Origin: Pseudanabaena sp. FACHB-1998 | Lineage (GTDB): Bacteria; Cyanobacteriota; Cyanobacteriia; Pseudanabaenales; Pseudanabaenaceae | Length of the DNA: 64,000 nucleotides | Assembly: GCF_014696355.1 (NCBI RefSeq) | Contig: NZ_JACJQA010000028.1 | Span: forward strand, 1-64,000 | Direction of reading: 5' to 3' | Part shown: positions 1-16,237 of the stretch, one piece after another | Layout: every line of letters starts with the position of its first letter | Position numbering within the stretch: position 1 is the first letter of the stretch | The notes under the pieces: generated by a model | Seen by the model: only the letters and a program-made list of their open reading frames with translations | What the model was told of the DNA's origin: nothing | The model's database searches: none | Made by a program: the position numbers and the translations under genes

Positions 1-587
1 GTCTCAGCGAGATTCCAGACTCGATTACAAGGTTAACCAATCTCCAATCCCTTGACCTTAGCTACAACAGTCTCAGCGAGATTCCAGACTCGATTACAAG
101 GTTAACCAATCTCCAATCCCTTTACCTTAGCAACAACAGTCTCAGCGAGATTCCAGACTCGATTACAAGGTTAACCAATCTCCAATCCCTTGACCTTAGC
201 TACAACAGTCTCAGCGAGATTCCAGACTCGATTACAAGGTTAACCAATCTCCAATCCCTTTACCTTAGCTACAACAGTCTCAGCGAGATTCCAGACTCGA
301 TTACAAGGTTAACCAATCTCCAATCCCTTGACCTTAGAAACAACAGTCTCAGCGAGATTCCAGACTCGATTACAAGGTTAACCAATCTCCAATCCCTTGA
401 CCTTAGCAACAACAGTCTCAGCGAGATTCCAGACTCGATTACAAGGTTAACCAATCTCCAATCCCTTTACCTTAGCAACACCCGTCTCAGCGAGATTCCA
501 GACTCGATTACAAGGTTAACCAATCTCCAATCCCTTTACCTTAGCTACAACAGTCTCAGCGAGATTCCAGACTCGATTACAAGGTTA
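1..587 (+). repeat. 69-bp tandem LRR-coding repeat array, 8 full copies plus a partial ninth
   Basis: Copies begin at 1, 70, 139, 208, 277, 346, 415, 484 and 553 (the last is partial and then diverges). The first 53 bases of each of the eight full copies are identical. All differences fall in the last 16 bases, which encode the xLxxN stretch of the LRR, and all change the amino acid: Asp/Tyr, Ser/Arg, Tyr/Asn, and once Asn to Thr and Ser to Arg. The array continues off the left edge, so its copy number is unknown. Copies this alike can be miscounted in assembly. Confidence 0.97.
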
Positions 588-2618
588 CCAAAACTGACTC
601 GTTTAGCTCTAGATGAAAATCCAATCACAAAACCACCCTTAGAAGTGGTAAAAGAGGGCATCGAAGCCATTCGTCAATACTTCAAACAAATAGAAACCGA
701 AGGCATAGACTATCTCTACGAAGCAAAACTCCTGATTGTCGGTGAAGGTGGCGCAGGCAAAACTACCCTTGCTAATAAAATCATTAATCCCGATTATCAA
801 CTCTGCGAAGAAGACAGCACCAAAGGCATCGAAGTATTACATTGGTCATTTCCCCGCAGCGATGGCAATCAATTTAACGTTAATATTTGGGACTTTGGTG
901 GACAGGAAATCTATCACTCCACCCATCAATATTTCCTCACCAAACGCTCTCTCTATCTCCTCGTTGCCGATACCCGCAAAGAAGACACCGACTTTTACTA
1001 TTGGCTCAACGTCATCGAACTCCTCAGCGACAACAGCCCGATCCTGATTATCAAAAACGAAAAACAAGACCGTCAGAGGGAAATTAACGTCAACCAACTG
1101 CGCGGCGAATTTGAGAACCTTAAAGATGTTTTTGCCACCAATCTCGCAAATAACCGTAATTTAGCAAAAATCCTCACCGCCGCCCAACATCAACTCAGCC
1201 AACTCCCCCACATCGGTCAAACCCTCCCCAAAACATGGGTCAAAGTCCGCCATGCCCTAGAGAACGACCCACGCAACCACATCAGCCTCAATGAATATCT
1301 TCAAATCTGCAAGGACAACGGTTTTAAAGAGCGCAAAAACGCATTGCAACTTAGCGGCTATCTCCATGACCTCGGCATCTGTCTCCATTTCCAAGACGAT
1401 GAAATGTCCCCCCTCTATCAAACCGTCATCCTCAAACCCAAATGGGGAACCGATGCTGCCTATGCCGTTCTCGACAATCCTAAAGTAATCCGTAACTTTG
1501 GGCGCTTCAGCAATAAAGAACTTGCCCAAATCTGGAGCGTAGACAAATATTCAGGAATGCACGGCGGCTTACTGGAACTAATGAAAAAGTTTCAACTCTG
1601 CTACGAAATCCCACAAGAAAAAGGCAGTTACATCGCCCCCCAACTCCTCACCGAAAACCAACCTGAATATACTTGGGATGAATCCGAAAACCTGATCCTC
1701 CGATATACCTACGACTTCATGCCCAAGGGCATCGTGCGTCAGTTCATCGTCGCCATACACGAAAACATCGAAGCCCAAAATGTCTGGCGTAGCGGCGTAA
1801 TCATCCATAAGCGCGAATATGCCAACACCCGCGCCGAAGTCATCGAAAACTACGGCAAACGCGAAATCAAGATCCGCGTCTCTGGTAAAAACAAGCGTGA
1901 CCTATTAACAGTAGTCACCCACGAACTCGACAAAATCCACAACTCCTACAAACGCCTCGCCGACAAATATCAAAAGCTCATCCCCTGCAACTGCAACACC
2001 TGCGGAGGTAGTCAAAATCCCCATTTCTACGAATTCACCAACCTCAAACGCCGCTACGAAAACCGTAAATATAACGTTGAGTGTGACATTAGTTATGAAT
2101 CTGTCAATGTATTAGGCTTAATTGATGACAGTGGCGCACGGTCAATGCTATCCAAATCTTTTGAAGATGAAAATAAACGATTGGATAAGGATAACCAACT
2201 ATCAAATTCAGCATCTGTTAGCATTTACGTTAATCAAAACCAAGAGCAAACCATGAGCGATTCTCAGACCACTTTAAATTTCCACAATTCAGTCGGACAA
2301 GTTGTTACAGGCGATCAAAATGTTGCAGGTGACAACATCGGCATACAAAATAACAACTATTCTCCCAACCTTGCCCAAGCCGCCAAAGAAATCAAAGAGC
2401 TACTCGATCAACTTTCTGAAGAATACAATGCCAATACGGAAAAGGGACAAAATCTAATTAAAGATGAAGCTGTCAATGCGATCAAAAAGGATTCCACACT
2501 TCAACAAAAAATAGTAAAAGCTATCAAAGAAGGTGGTGTTACCGCACTAGAAGAAGCAATAAATCATCCAGTTGCAAAAATTGTAATTGCCACAACCAAA
2601 GGCTTTCTAGAAGGTTAG
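1..2618 (+). CDS. LRR-Roc-COR family GTPase (5' end outside window)
   Basis: The reading frame is open from base 3 and runs unbroken into the GTG at 645 sometimes taken as a start, so the true start lies upstream of the window. The N-terminal part consists of 23-residue leucine-rich repeats. Counting from the GTG, a Roc GTPase domain follows with P-loop GEGGAGKTT at residues 33-41 and the Roc-type G3 motif DFGGQE at 83-88; the G4 region (NEKQD) is not a clean NKxD. A COR dimerisation region follows, with a CxCxxC cluster (C448, C450, C453) that could bind zinc. Next is a polar Asn/Gly/Gln-rich linker (about 540-580) and a helical tail of about 80 residues of a kind seen at the end of other cyanobacterial conflict or signalling proteins. 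Roc-COR proteins are dimeric GTPase switches; the LRRs probably bind a ligand. The partner and output are unknown. Confidence 0.9.
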   Translation, partial: LSEIPDSITRLTNLQSLDLSYNSLSEIPDSITRLTNLQSLYLSNNSLSEIPDSITRLTNLQSLDLSYNSLSEIPDSITRLTNLQSLYLSYNSLSEIPDSITRLTNLQSLDLRNNSLSEIPDSITRLTNLQSLDLSNNSLSEIPDSITRLTNLQSLYLSNTRLSEIPDSITRLTNLQSLYLSYNSLSEIPDSITRLPKLTRLALDENPITKPPLEVVKEGIEAIRQYFKQIETEGIDYLYEAKLLIVGEGGAGKTTLANKIINPDYQLCEEDSTKGIEVLHWSFPRSDGNQFNVNIWDFGGQEIYHSTHQYFLTKRSLYLLVADTRKEDTDFYYWLNVIELLSDNSPILIIKNEKQDRQREINVNQLRGEFENLKDVFATNLANNRNLAKILTAAQHQLSQLPHIGQTLPKTWVKVRHALENDPRNHISLNEYLQICKDNGFKERKNALQLSGYLHDLGICLHFQDDEMSPLYQTVILKPKWGTDAAYAVLDNPKVIRNFGRFSNKELAQIWSVDKYSGMHGGLLELMKKFQLCYEIPQEKGSYIAPQLLTENQPEYTWDESENLILRYTYDFMPKGIVRQFIVAIHENIEAQNVWRSGVIIHKREYANTRAEVIENYGKREIKIRVSGKNKRDLLTVVTHELDKIHNSYKRLADKYQKLIPCNCNTCGGSQNPHFYEFTNLKRRYENRKYNVECDISYESVNVLGLIDDSGARSMLSKSFEDENKRLDKDNQLSNSASVSIYVNQNQEQTMSDSQTTLNFHNSVGQVVTGDQNVAGDNIGIQNNNYSPNLAQAAKEIKELLDQLSEEYNANTEKGQNLIKDEAVNAIKKDSTLQQKIVKAIKEGGVTALEEAINHPVAKIVIATTKGFLEG

Positions 2619-2625
2619 AGATTAA

Positions 2626-2690
2626 GATCCCCGACTTTTTTTGTGAATTTATAATTCCCTTGCGATCGCCAAGAAAAAGTCGGGGATCTG
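2626..2690. repeat. Inverted repeat downstream of the Roc-COR gene
   Basis: GATCCCCGACTTTTTT near 2626 is matched by AAAAAGTCGGGGATC ending near 2689. It lies 10 bases after the stop codon. It may fold as a terminator stem-loop or be a small repeat element. Confidence 0.7.
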
Positions 2691-2761
2691 GACATTTATA
2701 GAATTTCGGCAATATTTTTCAGTCATTTGCACGAAAAAATGATGGCGATTAGGACTTAACC

Positions 2762-9858: not shown

Positions 9859-11214
9859 ATGGCTGTAGATTATAAAAAATTCTTTAAAGCGACCGATCCA
9901 AGTAAAACACTGCTTGCTGATAGCGCCGAAGACAAGAAATATTACATTGATTTCTCGACGGTACGTGGCGGTAAAGTAGTTGAAGACTTAAAGGATAATA
10001 TTTCGCTATTTTCCGATGGACAGCCAACTTGTCAGTTATTTACAGGGCATATCGGTTGTGGCAAATCTACAGAAATACTCCAGCTTAAGCAGCAACTAGA
10101 GAGCGAAGGCTTTCATGTCGTGTACTTTGAATCCAGTCAAGACATGGAAATGGGAGATGTCGATCTTAGCGATATCCTCTTAGCGATCGCACGACGGGTG
10201 GTGGAGAGCCTAGAAGCGATCAAGGTAAAGACTGAGGCTAAAGGATTTCGCGCCATGCTCAATGGTGCGGTCAAAATCTTACAAACTGAGATCGAACTAT
10301 CCGCCGAAGCCGAAGTGCCGGGGGTGGGAAAAGTGGAAGCCAATACCAGTGGCGAATTTTCCTTGTCTCTGGGCATTGGCAAGCTATCAGCAAAAACCAA
10401 AGATAGCCCCGATGTTCGCAGTAAATTGCGCGGCTACATGGAACCAAAAACCAATGGACTACTCGATTTAATTAATCAAGAAATTCTCTTGCCAGCGATC
10501 GCCGATCTTAAAAAAATTGGCAAAGAAGGCATTGTTGTTATCGTCGATAACCTCGATCGCGTAGATGACTCTCCTAAACCTTGGGGCAGACCCCAAACCG
10601 AATATCTATTTGTTGATCGAGCAGAACAACTCCGCAAATTACAATGCCATGTGGTCTACACCATGCCCCTCGCCTTGAGATTTTCAAGGGATTATGGAAC
10701 CCTAGTGGCGAGATTCATGACCGATCCCATTGTCCTGCCCATGGTTCCCGTGGTCAGGCGAGATGGCACAGCCCATGAAGAAGGCATGGCGCTTTTACGT
10801 CAGATGATTCTCTCTAGAGTAATGCCAGATAGCGCCCCCCTTGAGAGACTAAAAGCCGTAGGGGAAGTTTTCGATAGTCTAGATACCTTGGATCGCCTTT
10901 GTTTTGCTAGTGGAGGTCATGTACGAAATATTATGCGATTGCTTAATGACGCACTCCGCAAACAACGTGGGTTACCCGTGACCCTTGAGGTGCTGGAAGA
11001 GACTATTCGTAAACGTCGAAATGAATTAGTTCTTTCCATTGATGATGATGAATGGAAGCTTCTCAAACAAGTTAACAACACCAAGAAAGTAGTAGGCGAT
11101 ACTGGCTATCAAACCTTGATTAGAAGTATGTATGTCTATGAATATCAAGATGAAAATGGTTCTTGGTTTGAGGTTAATCCAGTACTTGCTACAGCCCAAG
11201 AATTCGCTATTTAG
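9859..11214 (+). CDS. P-loop ATPase upstream of a WD40-STAND protein
   Basis: The 451 residues carry Walker A GHIGCGKST (63-71), Walker B IVVIVDNLDRV (about 225-235) and, at the C-terminus (about 375-451), a winged-helix-like region ending with a WFEVNPVL element. This matches AAA/STAND-type ATPases rather than metabolic kinases. Between the Walker motifs lies an insert (about 105-190) with alternating short strands (ELSAEAEVPGVGKVEANTSG). A GAGG-like ribosome site precedes the ATG. The gene lies 73 bases upstream of the giant STAND-WD40 gene on the same strand, suggesting a two-component unit. It may be a sensor, a switch or a loading partner; its output is unknown. Confidence 0.8.
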   Translation: MAVDYKKFFKATDPSKTLLADSAEDKKYYIDFSTVRGGKVVEDLKDNISLFSDGQPTCQLFTGHIGCGKSTEILQLKQQLESEGFHVVYFESSQDMEMGDVDLSDILLAIARRVVESLEAIKVKTEAKGFRAMLNGAVKILQTEIELSAEAEVPGVGKVEANTSGEFSLSLGIGKLSAKTKDSPDVRSKLRGYMEPKTNGLLDLINQEILLPAIADLKKIGKEGIVVIVDNLDRVDDSPKPWGRPQTEYLFVDRAEQLRKLQCHVVYTMPLALRFSRDYGTLVARFMTDPIVLPMVPVVRRDGTAHEEGMALLRQMILSRVMPDSAPLERLKAVGEVFDSLDTLDRLCFASGGHVRNIMRLLNDALRKQRGLPVTLEVLEETIRKRRNELVLSIDDDEWKLLKQVNNTKKVVGDTGYQTLIRSMYVYEYQDENGSWFEVNPVLATAQEFAI

Positions 11215-11247
11215 CAAAAGGAACGTGCTTGGCACGTTCCTTTTGCT
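11213..11247 (+). repeat. Perfect hairpin between the ATPase and STAND-WD40 genes
   Basis: AGCAAAAGGAACGTGC and its complement surround a TTG loop, starting on the ATPase stop codon. No T-run follows, so it may weaken or process read-through rather than stop it fully. Confidence 0.8.
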
Positions 11248-11287
11248 GCTGCCAATTGATTGCGATCGCGGAGAGTAAATATCTATT

Positions 11288-14200
11288 ATGTCTGAGATTC
11301 CTTACCCCAACAAAGCCTCTGAAGAAACAACCATATTTAATATGTCGCCCGAAGCCGAACAAGCGCTTCAGCAATTGACAACACAATTAGATATTTATCA
11401 AAATGAGTTGGTTAACTCGTTTAATATTTCTTTGGAAATCGAAGATGCTCTCCAAGAGTTATCCCTACTTCTAGATATTTATGACGGAACTTTCACCCTC
11501 TTACTCGCTCGTTGTAATTATGTAAATCTTCGCGATCGCGCGATCGCCCGTCTTCAAGAAATCTTGCCTACCAAAGCACGACAAGTAAAGTTAGATGCGG
11601 CTACAACATCGATTTATTATGCAATTCAAGCTTCAACTCCCGCTTTTCGTGAAGGCAACTTAGCCCCAGTGATCGTCACTGGACTAGAATCAGCAGAAAA
11701 TATAGATGCATTAATTAAAGGACTAAATCAGATCCGTGAAGAGTTCCGCAAAAACTGTCTCTTTCCGATTGTGCTATGGATTAACGATGATCTACTGAAA
11801 CGCTTAATTAAAATGGCTCCCGACTTTGAAAGTTGGACGACCACCATTGAGTTTCCTATTGCCAGTAGTGACTTACTAGAATCTTTGTCTGCGGGTACAG
11901 AAGCTCTATTTAGTTTGTCTCTCGCCGCTAATCTCATCGATCCTAGCCATAGTTTGGGAAGAATTTCTCATTTAGGCGGAATTTATCTTTCCGAGCTTGA
12001 TGTAGCCCTGCGCGATTTGTCCAATCAAGGTCAAAAGATTGAAGTATCCTTACAGGCTGGATTAGATTTTATTCGGGGGATGAATACCCATGATTTTGAT
12101 AAAGCTCTTAACTATTTACAATCTAGCTACAAATATTGGGAATCTATTCAAAATACCGAAAGACAAGGACTTCTCCTCTATCAAATAGGGCGAAGACGCT
12201 ATCACCTTACCAAATTAGAAAAACATTCCTACGAAGCAAATTGGCGGGTAGTTGAGGAATTGTTTGACCAAAGCTTAGAATTATTTAGAAAAGCAAATCG
12301 ACAGGACTTAATGTCTCAGTGCTATTTGCAGCTACAACGTACTTTGCATCATCTCCAAGCATGGGAAGAATTGCAGGAAATATCTCAAAAGGCTCTCCAA
12401 ATCCATGAAACCTATGGTGGAACTAGCGATATTATCGCTGATTATGGTTTTTTGGCAGAAGTAAACTTAGAAATCGGGGAATGGGAACTAGCTCAAGAAT
12501 TTGCCCAGAAAGCACTAAAGCTTCTTATTGATGCACCGCAATCTATTCAATGGCTAAATGGATTATATCTTTGCTACTTAGCCCAAGCCCAAATTCAACT
12601 AGAACAAATCGATCAAGCTCTAGATAACCTACTCGAAGCCAAGCGAAGAGAGCATTGCGGACATCCTCGAATGTATATCCGCATCCTGAATACATTACGA
12701 GATCTCTGCTTCTCCCAAGGTGATTATTTAGAAGCTTTTCAAACTAAACAGGAACGCTTAGCGATCGAGCAACGCTATGGCTATCGCGCTTTTATCGGTG
12801 CGGGGCAATTGCAATCATGCCTAGAGGAATATTCTAGTTTTTCCGAACGCTCTAATCGAATTATTATTTCACCTGAAATCTATGCATCGGGGCGTAAGCA
12901 GGATTTAGACGAGCTAACCCAACGCCTTGGCGAACCTCGCTACAAAATGATTGTACTGCATGGTAATTCGGGTGTTGGCAAAAGTTCTTTTGTGAATGCA
13001 GGGCTAATGCCTGCCTTACAACAAGCTTCCTTTGGTGGAAGAGATGTAATTCCTGTCTCTATGAGAGTTTATACAAGTTGGGAACAGGAATTAGCCCACC
13101 AATTAGTAGAAGCTTTGCGATCGCTACCACAAAATTCTGCGCCATTGATGGAATTGGTAAATGGCGCAGATGTGAGCAAAGAAAATATTCTGGAGAGATT
13201 GCTGGAGCAACTACGTTGGAATGAAGCCAATAATCTGCGTACAGTCTTAATCTTTGACCAGTTTGAAGAATTTTTCTTTATTCATCAACAAAATATCGAT
13301 GAACGTCTTCGCTTTTTTGAGTTTATTGGTGGCTTGCTTAGCGATTTTCAGTATTTATCGTCCATTAAAGTTGTCCTGTCTCTGCGTGAAGACTATATTC
13401 ACTATCTTCTAGAATGTAATCGCATCAAGAGTATGAGTGCGATCGACAATGATATTCTCAGCAAAAATATTCTTTATCAGTTAGGGAATTTCTCAACGAC
13501 GGCAGCCCATTCCACCATTAAAACTTTGACAGAAAGAGCGCAATTTTATTTAGAGCCGCAACTGATTGACATATTGGTACAGGATTTAAAAAATGAGCGA
13601 GATGAAGTTCGCCCCATTGAATTACAGATTGTCGGCGCTCAACTACAGCACGATCGCATCAGCACCATTCATCAATATCACAAATTAGGAGATAACCCCA
13701 AAGAAACCCTTGTCCAAAGGTATTTAGATAATGTGGTTTCTGATTGTGGCAAAGAAAATTATCGACTCACTAACCTCATTCTCTATCTACTCACCGACGA
13801 AAAGGGAACTCGACCTCTTAAAACCTATGCTGAACTGGAAAGAAGTATAATTCATCTCAATACTGAGGTACAGAAGCGTAATGCAGGAGATAATACAGGA
13901 GATTCTGATAGTAATCTAGAACCAAATGAAGAAGAGTTGGCAGATGTTCACGCAATTGACAGATCGAAAATCGAGCTAATCCTTCAGATTTTAGTTGGTT
14001 CGGGGCTAGTCGTATTAATCCCTGAAAATCCTACCGATCGCTGTCAACTGGTTCATGACTATTTAGCAGTGGTAATTCGTAAATCCCAAGCACCCGAGAT
14101 CCAAAAGCTACAAAAGGAACTAGAAAAAACTCAAGCCGAACTGCGTCAAACAGTGCGTCAATTAGAAGGCTCCCTCAAAAATTCCCAAGCGATCGCCGAT

Positions 14201-16237
14201 AGCCTTGGCTTAAATAGCCTATTAGATGGAAATCTCGTGGAGCTTGATGAACTAGTTAAAACTATGCACAAAGCCCAACATTGGCTAACGGAAATTGATG
14301 AGATCGATAGTGAAAATCGTCTTCAACTAACTAGCACTATCTACCGAGCGATCTATAACATCAAGGAAAAAAATCGAATTCAAGCCCATTTAGAAGGCGT
14401 ATGGACGACGGAATATAGTCCTGATGGCTCTATGCTGGTTTCGGGCGGGCTTGATAATTTGATTAAGCTATGGCATCTCGATGGACGCGAAATACTACAA
14501 CTGGTCGGACATACAGGCGTAGTTCGCAGTACGACCTTCAGCCCCGACGGACAAACGATCCTATCGGGATGTAGTGATAAAACCATTGGTCTATGGAACC
14601 TCCAAGGCGATCGCCTGAAGACTTTTACGGGACATGGTGGTACAGTTTGGAGCGCCCGCTTCAGTCCTGATGGCAAGATGATTGTTTCGGGCAGTGCCGA
14701 TGAAACCATTAAGCTGTGGAATCTGGATGGCGAAGAATTACTCACCATCAGTGGTCATCGTGGCGATGTGCGGACAGTCCTATTCAGTGCCGATGGTAAT
14801 TGGATTATTTCGGGCGGCGCTGATAAAATGATTATGATTTGGAGTCTTGATGGGACTCTGCTTCAGAGCGCTAAGGGGCATACTGCCGATATTCGTAGCA
14901 TTAGCATTCATCCTACGGGTGCATTTATCGCTTCGAGTAGTGGCGATGGTATCCTCAAGCTTTGGCGCATGAACCGTTCTGAAGCGGAAAATACAACGAA
15001 TATGGCGATCGCCTTAGAAGAAGTATTTTCCATTGAAGGTCATGCTAGCGCGATTCGGAGCGTCACCTTTAGCCGAGATGGCTCGATCCTTGCCACAGGC
15101 AGCGTTGATAAAAAGATTAAAATCTGGGATCTCGCTGGTAAGGAACTACAGGTTTTTAAAGGGCATAATGATGCTGTTCGTTCCGTTAATTTCAGTCCCG
15201 ACAATAACAGCCTAGTTTCCGCCAGTTTAGACTGCACGATCCGTCAATGGCATATTCACAGCCGCACTCAGCAAACCCTACGAGGGCATAATGCCGCCGT
15301 TAGAACCCTAACCTTTAGTCCTGACGGCAAATATCTTATCTCGGGTGGGCTAGACGATCAAATTAAATGCTGGGATTTGCAAGGCAATGAAATTCAAACC
15401 ATTAGCGGTGAGCATGATATTCTCAGCGTCAAATTTAGCCCTGATAGTAAGAGTTTGCTGGTCGGAAGTGGCGATAGTGTCATTTCCCTATGGTCAATTA
15501 TGGGCAAAAAACATAAGCTCTTGCAAACCTTTACGGGACACAGCACCGCAGTTTGGTCTGTGGATTTTAGCGCCAATGGCAAACTCATAGTTTCAGGAAG
15601 TAGCGACAAATCGGTCAAGTTATGGCAAATCGATGGGACAGAATTAGCCACTCTTAAAGGTCACAAGTCCACTGTATGGAGTGTGTGTTTTAGCCCTGAT
15701 GGTCAAAAATTTGCCTCTGGTAGTGGTGACAACACGATTAAGCTATGGAGTATAGAAGGCAAAGAATTACTAACTTTAATCGGACATCGGGGCTCAGTAT
15801 GGAGTGTGTGTTTTAGCCCTGACGGTCAATCTATTCTGTCGGGTAGTGGTGACGGTACGCTCAATCTCTGGAGCCTTCAAGGGGAAATATTAAAAACCTT
15901 TAAATCTCATGAGTCGGGAGTTTGGGCGGTTTGTTTTAGCCCTGACGGACGCAGCATTATTTCGGGCAGTGGTGACAATACCATTAAATTTTGGAGTTTA
16001 GATGGCAAGGAACTGCAAACTATTAAATGCCCAGAAAGCACACCCATTAGTCTTTGTTTCCATCCTGATGGGAGGTTCTTTGCCTCAGGGCATGGCGACA
16101 ATAGAGTAGGTCTATGGAATCTCAACCTCTCGGAGTTAGTGTCCCAAGGCTGCGAATGGTTGCATGACTATTTGCAATACAATGCCAAAATGCATAAAGA
16201 AAATACTAATTTGCTAAATTACAAAGCTTCCCGCTAA
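11288..16237 (+). CDS. Giant STAND NTPase with helical sensor region and 14 WD40 repeats
   Basis: The protein has 1649 residues. Residues 1-235 form an alpha/beta domain without a P-loop, with a motif pattern (LLLARCN..LRDRAIARL, then APDFESWTTTIEF) like that at the N-terminus of TPR-containing cyanobacterial conflict proteins. Residues about 265-520 are helical and TPR-like. An nSTAND1-type NTPase follows: Walker A GNSGVGKSS (559-567), Walker B TVLIFDQFEEF (about 651-661). A coiled coil (about 937-975) leads to WD40 repeats 1-14 (about 1033-1620), enough for two seven-bladed propellers; repeats 10-13 are the most alike. The design is that of an intracellular sensor that oligomerises on ligand binding. 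It probably works with the ATPase just upstream. No nuclease, TIR or protease effector domain is recognised in it. Confidence 0.9.
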   Translation: MSEIPYPNKASEETTIFNMSPEAEQALQQLTTQLDIYQNELVNSFNISLEIEDALQELSLLLDIYDGTFTLLLARCNYVNLRDRAIARLQEILPTKARQVKLDAATTSIYYAIQASTPAFREGNLAPVIVTGLESAENIDALIKGLNQIREEFRKNCLFPIVLWINDDLLKRLIKMAPDFESWTTTIEFPIASSDLLESLSAGTEALFSLSLAANLIDPSHSLGRISHLGGIYLSELDVALRDLSNQGQKIEVSLQAGLDFIRGMNTHDFDKALNYLQSSYKYWESIQNTERQGLLLYQIGRRRYHLTKLEKHSYEANWRVVEELFDQSLELFRKANRQDLMSQCYLQLQRTLHHLQAWEELQEISQKALQIHETYGGTSDIIADYGFLAEVNLEIGEWELAQEFAQKALKLLIDAPQSIQWLNGLYLCYLAQAQIQLEQIDQALDNLLEAKRREHCGHPRMYIRILNTLRDLCFSQGDYLEAFQTKQERLAIEQRYGYRAFIGAGQLQSCLEEYSSFSERSNRIIISPEIYASGRKQDLDELTQRLGEPRYKMIVLHGNSGVGKSSFVNAGLMPALQQASFGGRDVIPVSMRVYTSWEQELAHQLVEALRSLPQNSAPLMELVNGADVSKENILERLLEQLRWNEANNLRTVLIFDQFEEFFFIHQQNIDERLRFFEFIGGLLSDFQYLSSIKVVLSLREDYIHYLLECNRIKSMSAIDNDILSKNILYQLGNFSTTAAHSTIKTLTERAQFYLEPQLIDILVQDLKNERDEVRPIELQIVGAQLQHDRISTIHQYHKLGDNPKETLVQRYLDNVVSDCGKENYRLTNLILYLLTDEKGTRPLKTYAELERSIIHLNTEVQKRNAGDNTGDSDSNLEPNEEELADVHAIDRSKIELILQILVGSGLVVLIPENPTDRCQLVHDYLAVVIRKSQAPEIQKLQKELEKTQAELRQTVRQLEGSLKNSQAIADSLGLNSLLDGNLVELDELVKTMHKAQHWLTEIDEIDSENRLQLTSTIYRAIYNIKEKNRIQAHLEGVWTTEYSPDGSMLVSGGLDNLIKLWHLDGREILQLVGHTGVVRSTTFSPDGQTILSGCSDKTIGLWNLQGDRLKTFTGHGGTVWSARFSPDGKMIVSGSADETIKLWNLDGEELLTISGHRGDVRTVLFSADGNWIISGGADKMIMIWSLDGTLLQSAKGHTADIRSISIHPTGAFIASSSGDGILKLWRMNRSEAENTTNMAIALEEVFSIEGHASAIRSVTFSRDGSILATGSVDKKIKIWDLAGKELQVFKGHNDAVRSVNFSPDNNSLVSASLDCTIRQWHIHSRTQQTLRGHNAAVRTLTFSPDGKYLISGGLDDQIKCWDLQGNEIQTISGEHDILSVKFSPDSKSLLVGSGDSVISLWSIMGKKHKLLQTFTGHSTAVWSVDFSANGKLIVSGSSDKSVKLWQIDGTELATLKGHKSTVWSVCFSPDGQKFASGSGDNTIKLWSIEGKELLTLIGHRGSVWSVCFSPDGQSILSGSGDGTLNLWSLQGEILKTFKSHESGVWAVCFSPDGRSIISGSGDNTIKFWSLDGKELQTIKCPESTPISLCFHPDGRFFASGHGDNRVGLWNLNLSELVSQGCEWLHDYLQYNAKMHKENTNLLNYKASR
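14386..16150 (+). repeat. WD40 repeat-coding region, 14 units
   Basis: Units of about 123 bp encode GH-x-V-S-V-x-F-S-P-D-G-x-S-G-S-D-x-T-I-K-L-W patterns. Unit 5 has an insertion (MNRSEAENTTNMAIALEE), unit 9 lacks the usual GH, and unit 14 starts CPES. Units 10 to 13 share VWSVCFSPDGQ-type stretches, pointing to recent duplication at the 3' end. Confidence 0.9.

Follow-up and report, generated by a model that had tools for sequence, protein, structure and literature searches.

A cyanobacterial ROCO gene with a uniform leucine-rich-repeat scaffold and a diverse predicted binding face, probably shaped by unit turnover and selection

We analyzed a window of 64,000 nucleotides, the first 64 kb of contig C21 in the genome of Pseudanabaena sp. 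FACHB-1998, the first base of which falls at the contig edge inside an array of tandem leucine-rich repeats (LRRs). The array belongs to a gene whose product is, from its sequence, a ROCO protein (LRR-Roc-COR), with N-terminal LRRs followed in order by Roc, COR-A and COR-B. The array units are identical over most of their length and differ only by amino-acid-changing bases, and related arrays from other genomes show an excess of amino-acid-changing over silent differences on the predicted concave face of the repeats. We propose that, in a ROCO sensor array, the scaffold is homogenized by turnover of units, with selection maintaining diversity on the binding face. As a whole this is the probable explanation; its firmest step, the selection signature on the concave face, is very likely correct.

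In all eight complete units of the window, bases 1–53 are invariant, as a first-pass annotation of this DNA had described (Table 1). Only five unit bases vary, namely 54 (G/T), 62 (A/C), 63 (A/T), 67 (A/C) and 69 (A/C), and the corresponding codon exchanges, GAC/TAC (D/Y), AGC/AGA (S/R), TAC/AAC (Y/N), AAC/ACC (N/T) and AGT/CGT (S/R), are all non-synonymous, again in agreement with that annotation. It had further assigned every difference to the variable positions of the LxLxxN motif; the five sites stand, but the N/T exchange lies at the conserved Asn of the motif (the Asn ladder) rather than at an exposed x, and it invariably accompanies the S/R exchange at position 10. The ninth scaffold matches the units over 35 bases before the capping repeat takes over, and the reading frame is open without interruption from 3 to 2618, with the LRRs in the same frame as Roc-COR.

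The genome assembly comprises 4.78 Mb in 64 contigs, and the end of contig C64 provides the sole other DNA match to the units. The ends of C21 and C64 almost certainly represent one gene that the assembler split within the array; the join is read from sequence, so the true copy number and order of units may differ from those given here. Together the two contig ends hold 14 units; these fall into six types, more than the two or three parental units suggested earlier. Silent differences among upstream repeats, which had been named as evidence that would count against the first-pass idea, are absent from the six additional units on C64, and none occur among the 14 units except in the last, where the array merges into unrelated capping sequence.

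For this array alone, earlier caution about chance was justified: five random sites would fall within 16 bp of 69 with p~0.008, and all five would be non-synonymous with p~0.29. Because the absence of silent differences is weak evidence in a single array, a comparative test was needed. Units were compared inside each gene in a sample of 98 non-redundant ROCO arrays, with one genome per species; the main set consisted of near-identical units (≤3 nt apart) from 39 arrays, for which minimal codon-site changes were counted. With the concave set defined as positions 3, 5, 7, 8 and 10 of LxxLxLxxNxLxxLPxxIxxLxx, the count for concave codons was 82.5 non-synonymous changes and 4.5 synonymous ones, compared with 49 and 43 in the other codons (Fisher p 4e-11). 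The ratio of non-synonymous to synonymous rates (dN/dS) was 2.31 (95% bootstrap interval over arrays, 1.53–3.51) at concave positions and 0.42 elsewhere, which supports the suggestion of selection for altered binding on a homogenized scaffold. Corresponding counts were 43:0 and 24:20 with a cut-off of 2 nt, and 263:36 and 137:153 with a cut-off of 5 nt. Concave dN/dS was 2.83 in Pseudanabaena only and 2.11 (1.34–3.38) in non-Pseudanabaena arrays only; it reached 2.94 (1.96–4.49) for the subset {5,7,8}, and loop and convex positions gave 0.73. Silent sites were counted with equal rates, making these ratios conservative if transitions are favored.

We considered several trivial causes of the excess. 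Post-hoc choice of positions was rejected because the textbook strand set {2,3,5,7,8} gave a similar value (2.29), and undue influence of this gene and of the orthologue closest to it because the excess stayed after both were removed (2.09, 1.41–3.13). Double counting of recombined variants was likewise rejected, since recounting as minimal codon-site changes left the result unchanged, as was very slow silent evolution, given that the Roc-COR regions of orthologues differ at 21–48% of four-fold sites (25% between this genome and that of the closest orthologue, G020). Silent change was low at Leu 4 and Leu 6, which lie between the variable codons (synonymous differences per site, ~0.03, against non-synonymous values of 0.22–0.30 at positions 3, 5, 7 and 8), indicating that a high mutability of the segment would not by itself account for its variation. 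Relaxed constraint is disfavored, as it fails to explain why amino-acid-changing differences are in excess over silent ones.

The pattern could also have arisen by recent tandem expansion of founding variants combined with chance, with the consensus under purifying selection and the concave positions neutral. The window array itself is compatible with this, since no more than five of its sites vary, including two that are linked, and all five could be non-synonymous by chance at the probability given above. Identical neighboring units also make recent expansion evident. Neutral concave positions, however, predict a dN/dS of about 1, below the pooled estimates, whether or not this gene and its orthologue were included. 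Concave changes were moreover rich in transversions (19 transitions to 47 transversions) relative to silent changes at the four-fold sites of those units (20 to 11), and the radical exchanges D/Y, R/S, N/Y and S/Y dominated, a bias that fits selection favoring radical residue changes. We therefore regard expansion plus chance as unlikely.

Several points weigh against selection on the concave face and the sensor role proposed for it. The dN/dS values are counting estimates rather than codon-model likelihood tests. At the level of single arrays, the concave non-synonymous rate exceeded the silent rate in 25 of the 39 and not in all, and when only few-contig genomes were used (7–8 arrays), concave dN/dS at the three cut-offs was 1.60, 1.24 and 1.70, in the same direction but weaker. 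Short-read data underlie many of the arrays, and assembly from such data handles repeats of this sort unreliably. The usable non-cyanobacterial comparisons (3 edges, with few close units) showed no excess, and a PADLOC search for defence genes returned weak partial matches only (mad8, 1.2e-4; mad3, 4.4e-4).

In an AlphaFold2 model of the part of the protein encoded in the window, the LRRs had predicted local distance difference test (pLDDT) scores of 84–96, and the other domains were less certain. Strands recur every 23 residues and span unit positions 3–5 (for example, E16–18), which would place positions 3, 5, 7 and 8 on or beside the concave sheet. In LRR folds, concave side chains stack on adjoining ones, and selection might accordingly act on structure or assembly, with concave residues tuning the stacking or a contact with the protein's own Roc-COR region and no arms race involved. 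The best solved relatives were the Chlorobium tepidum Roco and LRRK proteins, and the closest, C. tepidum Roco, has been solved as a defined LRR-Roc-COR assembly (6hlu). The variation in unit order and number between close orthologues and the dominance of radical exchanges such as D/Y would not be anticipated from a fixed internal contact, making this explanation decidedly unlikely.

Unit turnover, the other half of our proposal, was visible in several comparisons. Adjacent units were 13.2 nt apart, compared with 16.5 nt after permutation (0 of 500 permutations), with similarity falling with distance, and seven of eight high-identity arrays contained four-gamete pairs. Together these support the shuffling of units suggested in the first-pass annotation, although recurrent mutation could be the source of some four-gamete pairs. 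The nearest unit sits in the same gene in 67% of cases, against 11% after label permutation, and orthologues from different species carry 4–15 units, the order of which also differs between close orthologues. The arrays are thus under concerted evolution, in which units are duplicated in tandem, lost and exchanged, together with selection.

Because the assembly breaks within this array, short-read collapse might have mixed units and left a chimeric array, and for comparable Podospora receptors short-read assemblies are known to be unreliable (PMC12222747). Long arrays of 15–16 units with the same pattern nevertheless lie inside large contigs of two few-contig genomes (G002 and G020), and artefacts would alter unit order and number, not bias the variants toward non-synonymous concave changes; we judge an artefact highly improbable. 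Targeted mutagenesis by a diversity-generating retroelement (DGR), or a similar adenine-specific process, has in its favor that A-directed change of AAC-type codons would yield non-synonymous changes only and that this genome does carry a DGR, in which nearly all differences between template and variable region fall on adenines of the template. Such a process requires a second near-copy of the unit as template, and a DNA match search of the genome found no other unit copy or cassette store beyond the ends of C21 and C64. The sole reverse transcriptase of the genome is paired with a template of its own that serves another target, which is lectin-like. A DGR origin is therefore refuted for this genome, barring a template in an unassembled gap, and is barely credible as an explanation.

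Beyond the LRRs, the C-terminal four-helix module matched no Pfam family, and fold comparison yielded nothing beyond widespread helical arrangements (best Z 6.4, with a root-mean-square deviation of 4.0 over 80 aligned residues, to a designed protein). In relatives, the module also stands alone or on other proteins without Roc-COR, as an adaptor would, which makes it a possible adaptor candidate on sequence grounds. Named NCBIfam effector families were rejected as assignments for the LRRs because their scores lay far under the family cut-offs, the likeness being that of generic LRRs.

Table 1. Features of the ROCO gene and the retroelement compared with it. Positions refer to the window unless a contig or locus is named.
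Feature	Position	Strand	Details
LRR array, 3' part	1–587	+	8 complete 69-bp units (23 residues) and a ninth scaffold; Pfam LRR_8, 1.5e-47
Unit starts	1, 70, 139, 208, 277, 346, 415, 484		Ninth scaffold from 553
Variable segment, unit 1	54–69	+	Codons 5–10 of LxxLxLxxNxL
Recurrences of variable segment	123, 192, 261, 330, 399, 468, 537		Every 69 bp
Divergent C-terminal capping LRR	588–650	+	LPKLTRLALDENPITKPP; assigned from sequence; leads into Roc
Roc GTPase domain	726–1061	+	Pfam PF08477, 5.3e-25, residues 242–353; P-loop GEGGAGKT, WDFGGQE
COR-A domain	1227–1649	+	Pfam PF16095, 7.3e-45, residues 409–549
COR-B domain	1686–2129	+	Pfam PF25497, 6.1e-42, residues 562–709
C-terminal four-helix module	2364–2612	+	AlphaFold2 mean pLDDT 85.6
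Dispersed repeat	2619–2695	+	Directly after the stop codon; 12 matches in genome; related copies beside other ROCO genes
Gene 5' part	Contig C64, L005:12346-13014		ATG start and about six further units, running into the contig end
DGR	L076 (G000:C34:31853-35491)		Lectin/formylglycine-generating enzyme (FGE)-like target 15–617; Avd-like gene; reverse transcriptase 1288–2355; template ~2435–2530

We propose the following sequence of events. Unequal exchange or slippage would duplicate, delete and convert units, keeping the scaffold uniform and reassorting variants between units, while selection would keep the concave face diverse, presumably because the partner it binds is varied or fast-changing. 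The partner would most likely be a non-self molecule from a phage, a parasite or a competitor. Its binding would shift the nucleotide or dimer state of Roc-COR, acting as a GTPase switch, and the C-terminal helical module would relay the signal to an effector. Certainty falls along this chain, from the binding of a partner to its being varied or changing, to its being non-self, to the Roc-COR switch and finally to the C-terminal relay. The immune role, which we infer from the selection pattern, the relatives and the predicted context, and the identity of the partner are the least certain steps, evenly poised between right and wrong.

Among known systems, the nearest is the LRR-ROCO family of the brown algae Ectocarpus and Saccharina, whose members are presented as candidate immune receptors (PMC11378527; Zambounis 2012 as cited there and in PMC4104024), with positive selection at concave sites 14, 16, 18 and 19 (PMC11378527). 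The algal proteins share the LRR-Roc-COR order and units of 23–24 residues, and their four selected sites are spaced as positions 3, 5, 7 and 8, where we found the same signature by a counting method rather than with PAML. They differ in having one LRR per exon, with exon shuffling and alternative splicing, whereas the present gene is a single intronless bacterial frame of near-identical tandem units that would be reassorted by DNA-level turnover only. This array thus works like the brown-algal system, yet by the exon feature it is not a member of it.

The NWD/HNWD NOD-like receptors of Podospora (het-d, het-e) show concerted repeat evolution with selection on surface codons (PMC1805685, PMC4986451, PMC12222747). 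Like the present array they have highly identical tandem repeats in variable number, with positive selection on a few codons of the interaction surface, and greater likeness within genes than between orthologues, the fungal trait to which the same-gene excess reported above corresponds. Unlike it, they carry WD40 propellers on NACHT NTPases and no LRRs, and they exchange units between loci; here exchange is known within genes only. C. tepidum Roco, the top structural match among LRR-Roc-COR proteins (E 1e-75 to 6hlu and 6e-76 to 8r4b), shares the domain architecture, but the C-terminal helical module is unmatched in it. LRR-Roc-COR proteins are reported to alternate between monomeric and dimeric forms with nucleotide (PMC5714945), and cyanobacterial Roc-COR (AP-GTPase) proteins have been found in predicted conflict systems (PMC7159879).

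The first-pass annotation had compared the array to the variable lymphocyte receptors (VLRs) of lampreys, and for lampreys and hagfish the comparison holds in effect, as in both a constant LRR scaffold carries concave residues that vary. It does not extend to process: VLRs arise through somatic assembly of cassettes, nothing of this somatic or programmed kind was seen here, and somatic VLR-like diversification of this array has no support. DGR-diversified antigen sensors (PMC10907252) resemble the array as diversified putative sensors in multicellular bacteria, including cyanobacteria, but their variable region is mutated from a template, which this array lacks.

Interest in ROCO proteins has come mainly from LRRK2. 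The selection signature across cyanobacteria, at the same four positions as in brown algae, points to ligand recognition under conflict as the natural role of bacterial ROCO proteins and offers a testable bacterial ROCO system. It would suggest that the receptor regime seen in brown algae and fungi evolved repeatedly or predates eukaryotic ROCO genes. More tentatively, intronless LRR-Roc-COR genes may be fast-evolving non-self receptors of cyanobacteria, in which recombination of units makes new binding faces within populations and possibly within one filament culture. By analogy, this would make them a bacterial counterpart of the brown-algal ROCO repertoire, itself proposed as a form of adaptive-like immunity. 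A literature search, with subscription papers mostly outside its reach, did not find this regime described for bacterial ROCO LRRs.

A query of the Roc-COR and C-terminal region matched 39 of 58 related genomes, some through the C-terminal module only, and COR-B was present in 142 of 390 genomes of the class. Carriers among close relatives are Pseudanabaena species; others include Nostoc, Okeania, Trichodesmium, Calothrix and more, with a few in other phyla. Flanks of the orthologues are conserved over short stretches only, suggesting that the gene is mobile. In the closest orthologue (L036, G020:C2), a frame break within the LRR array separates a frame of 475 residues from one of 711 residues; it may be a sequencing error, a pseudogene or a phase switch. 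The 53-bp scaffold DNA is the same in all units here (window 1–553, L005:12589-13014) and in that orthologue, an identity that could be due to chance or interspecies exchange; as the chance probability is ~0.08 (nine four-fold sites per unit), nothing is concluded from it.

The dispersed repeat that follows the gene is a background element outside the proposed mechanism, and a long near-perfect palindrome lies shortly 3' of the gene at 2763–2830. Defence-type neighbors occur on C64, namely a gene of MmeI-type restriction-modification (L005:5534-8221) and, directly upstream of the ROCO start, genes for a ParE-like toxin and a DUF2283 protein (L005:11414-12106). About 0.9 kb of this region is missing beside the orthologue in G007. 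In the window, about 7 kb from the ROCO gene, a P-loop ATPase gene is followed by one for a protein of 1649 residues ending in at least 14 WD40 repeats (9859–16237), a pair that forms a neighborhood resembling those of signal transduction ATPases with numerous domains (STAND).
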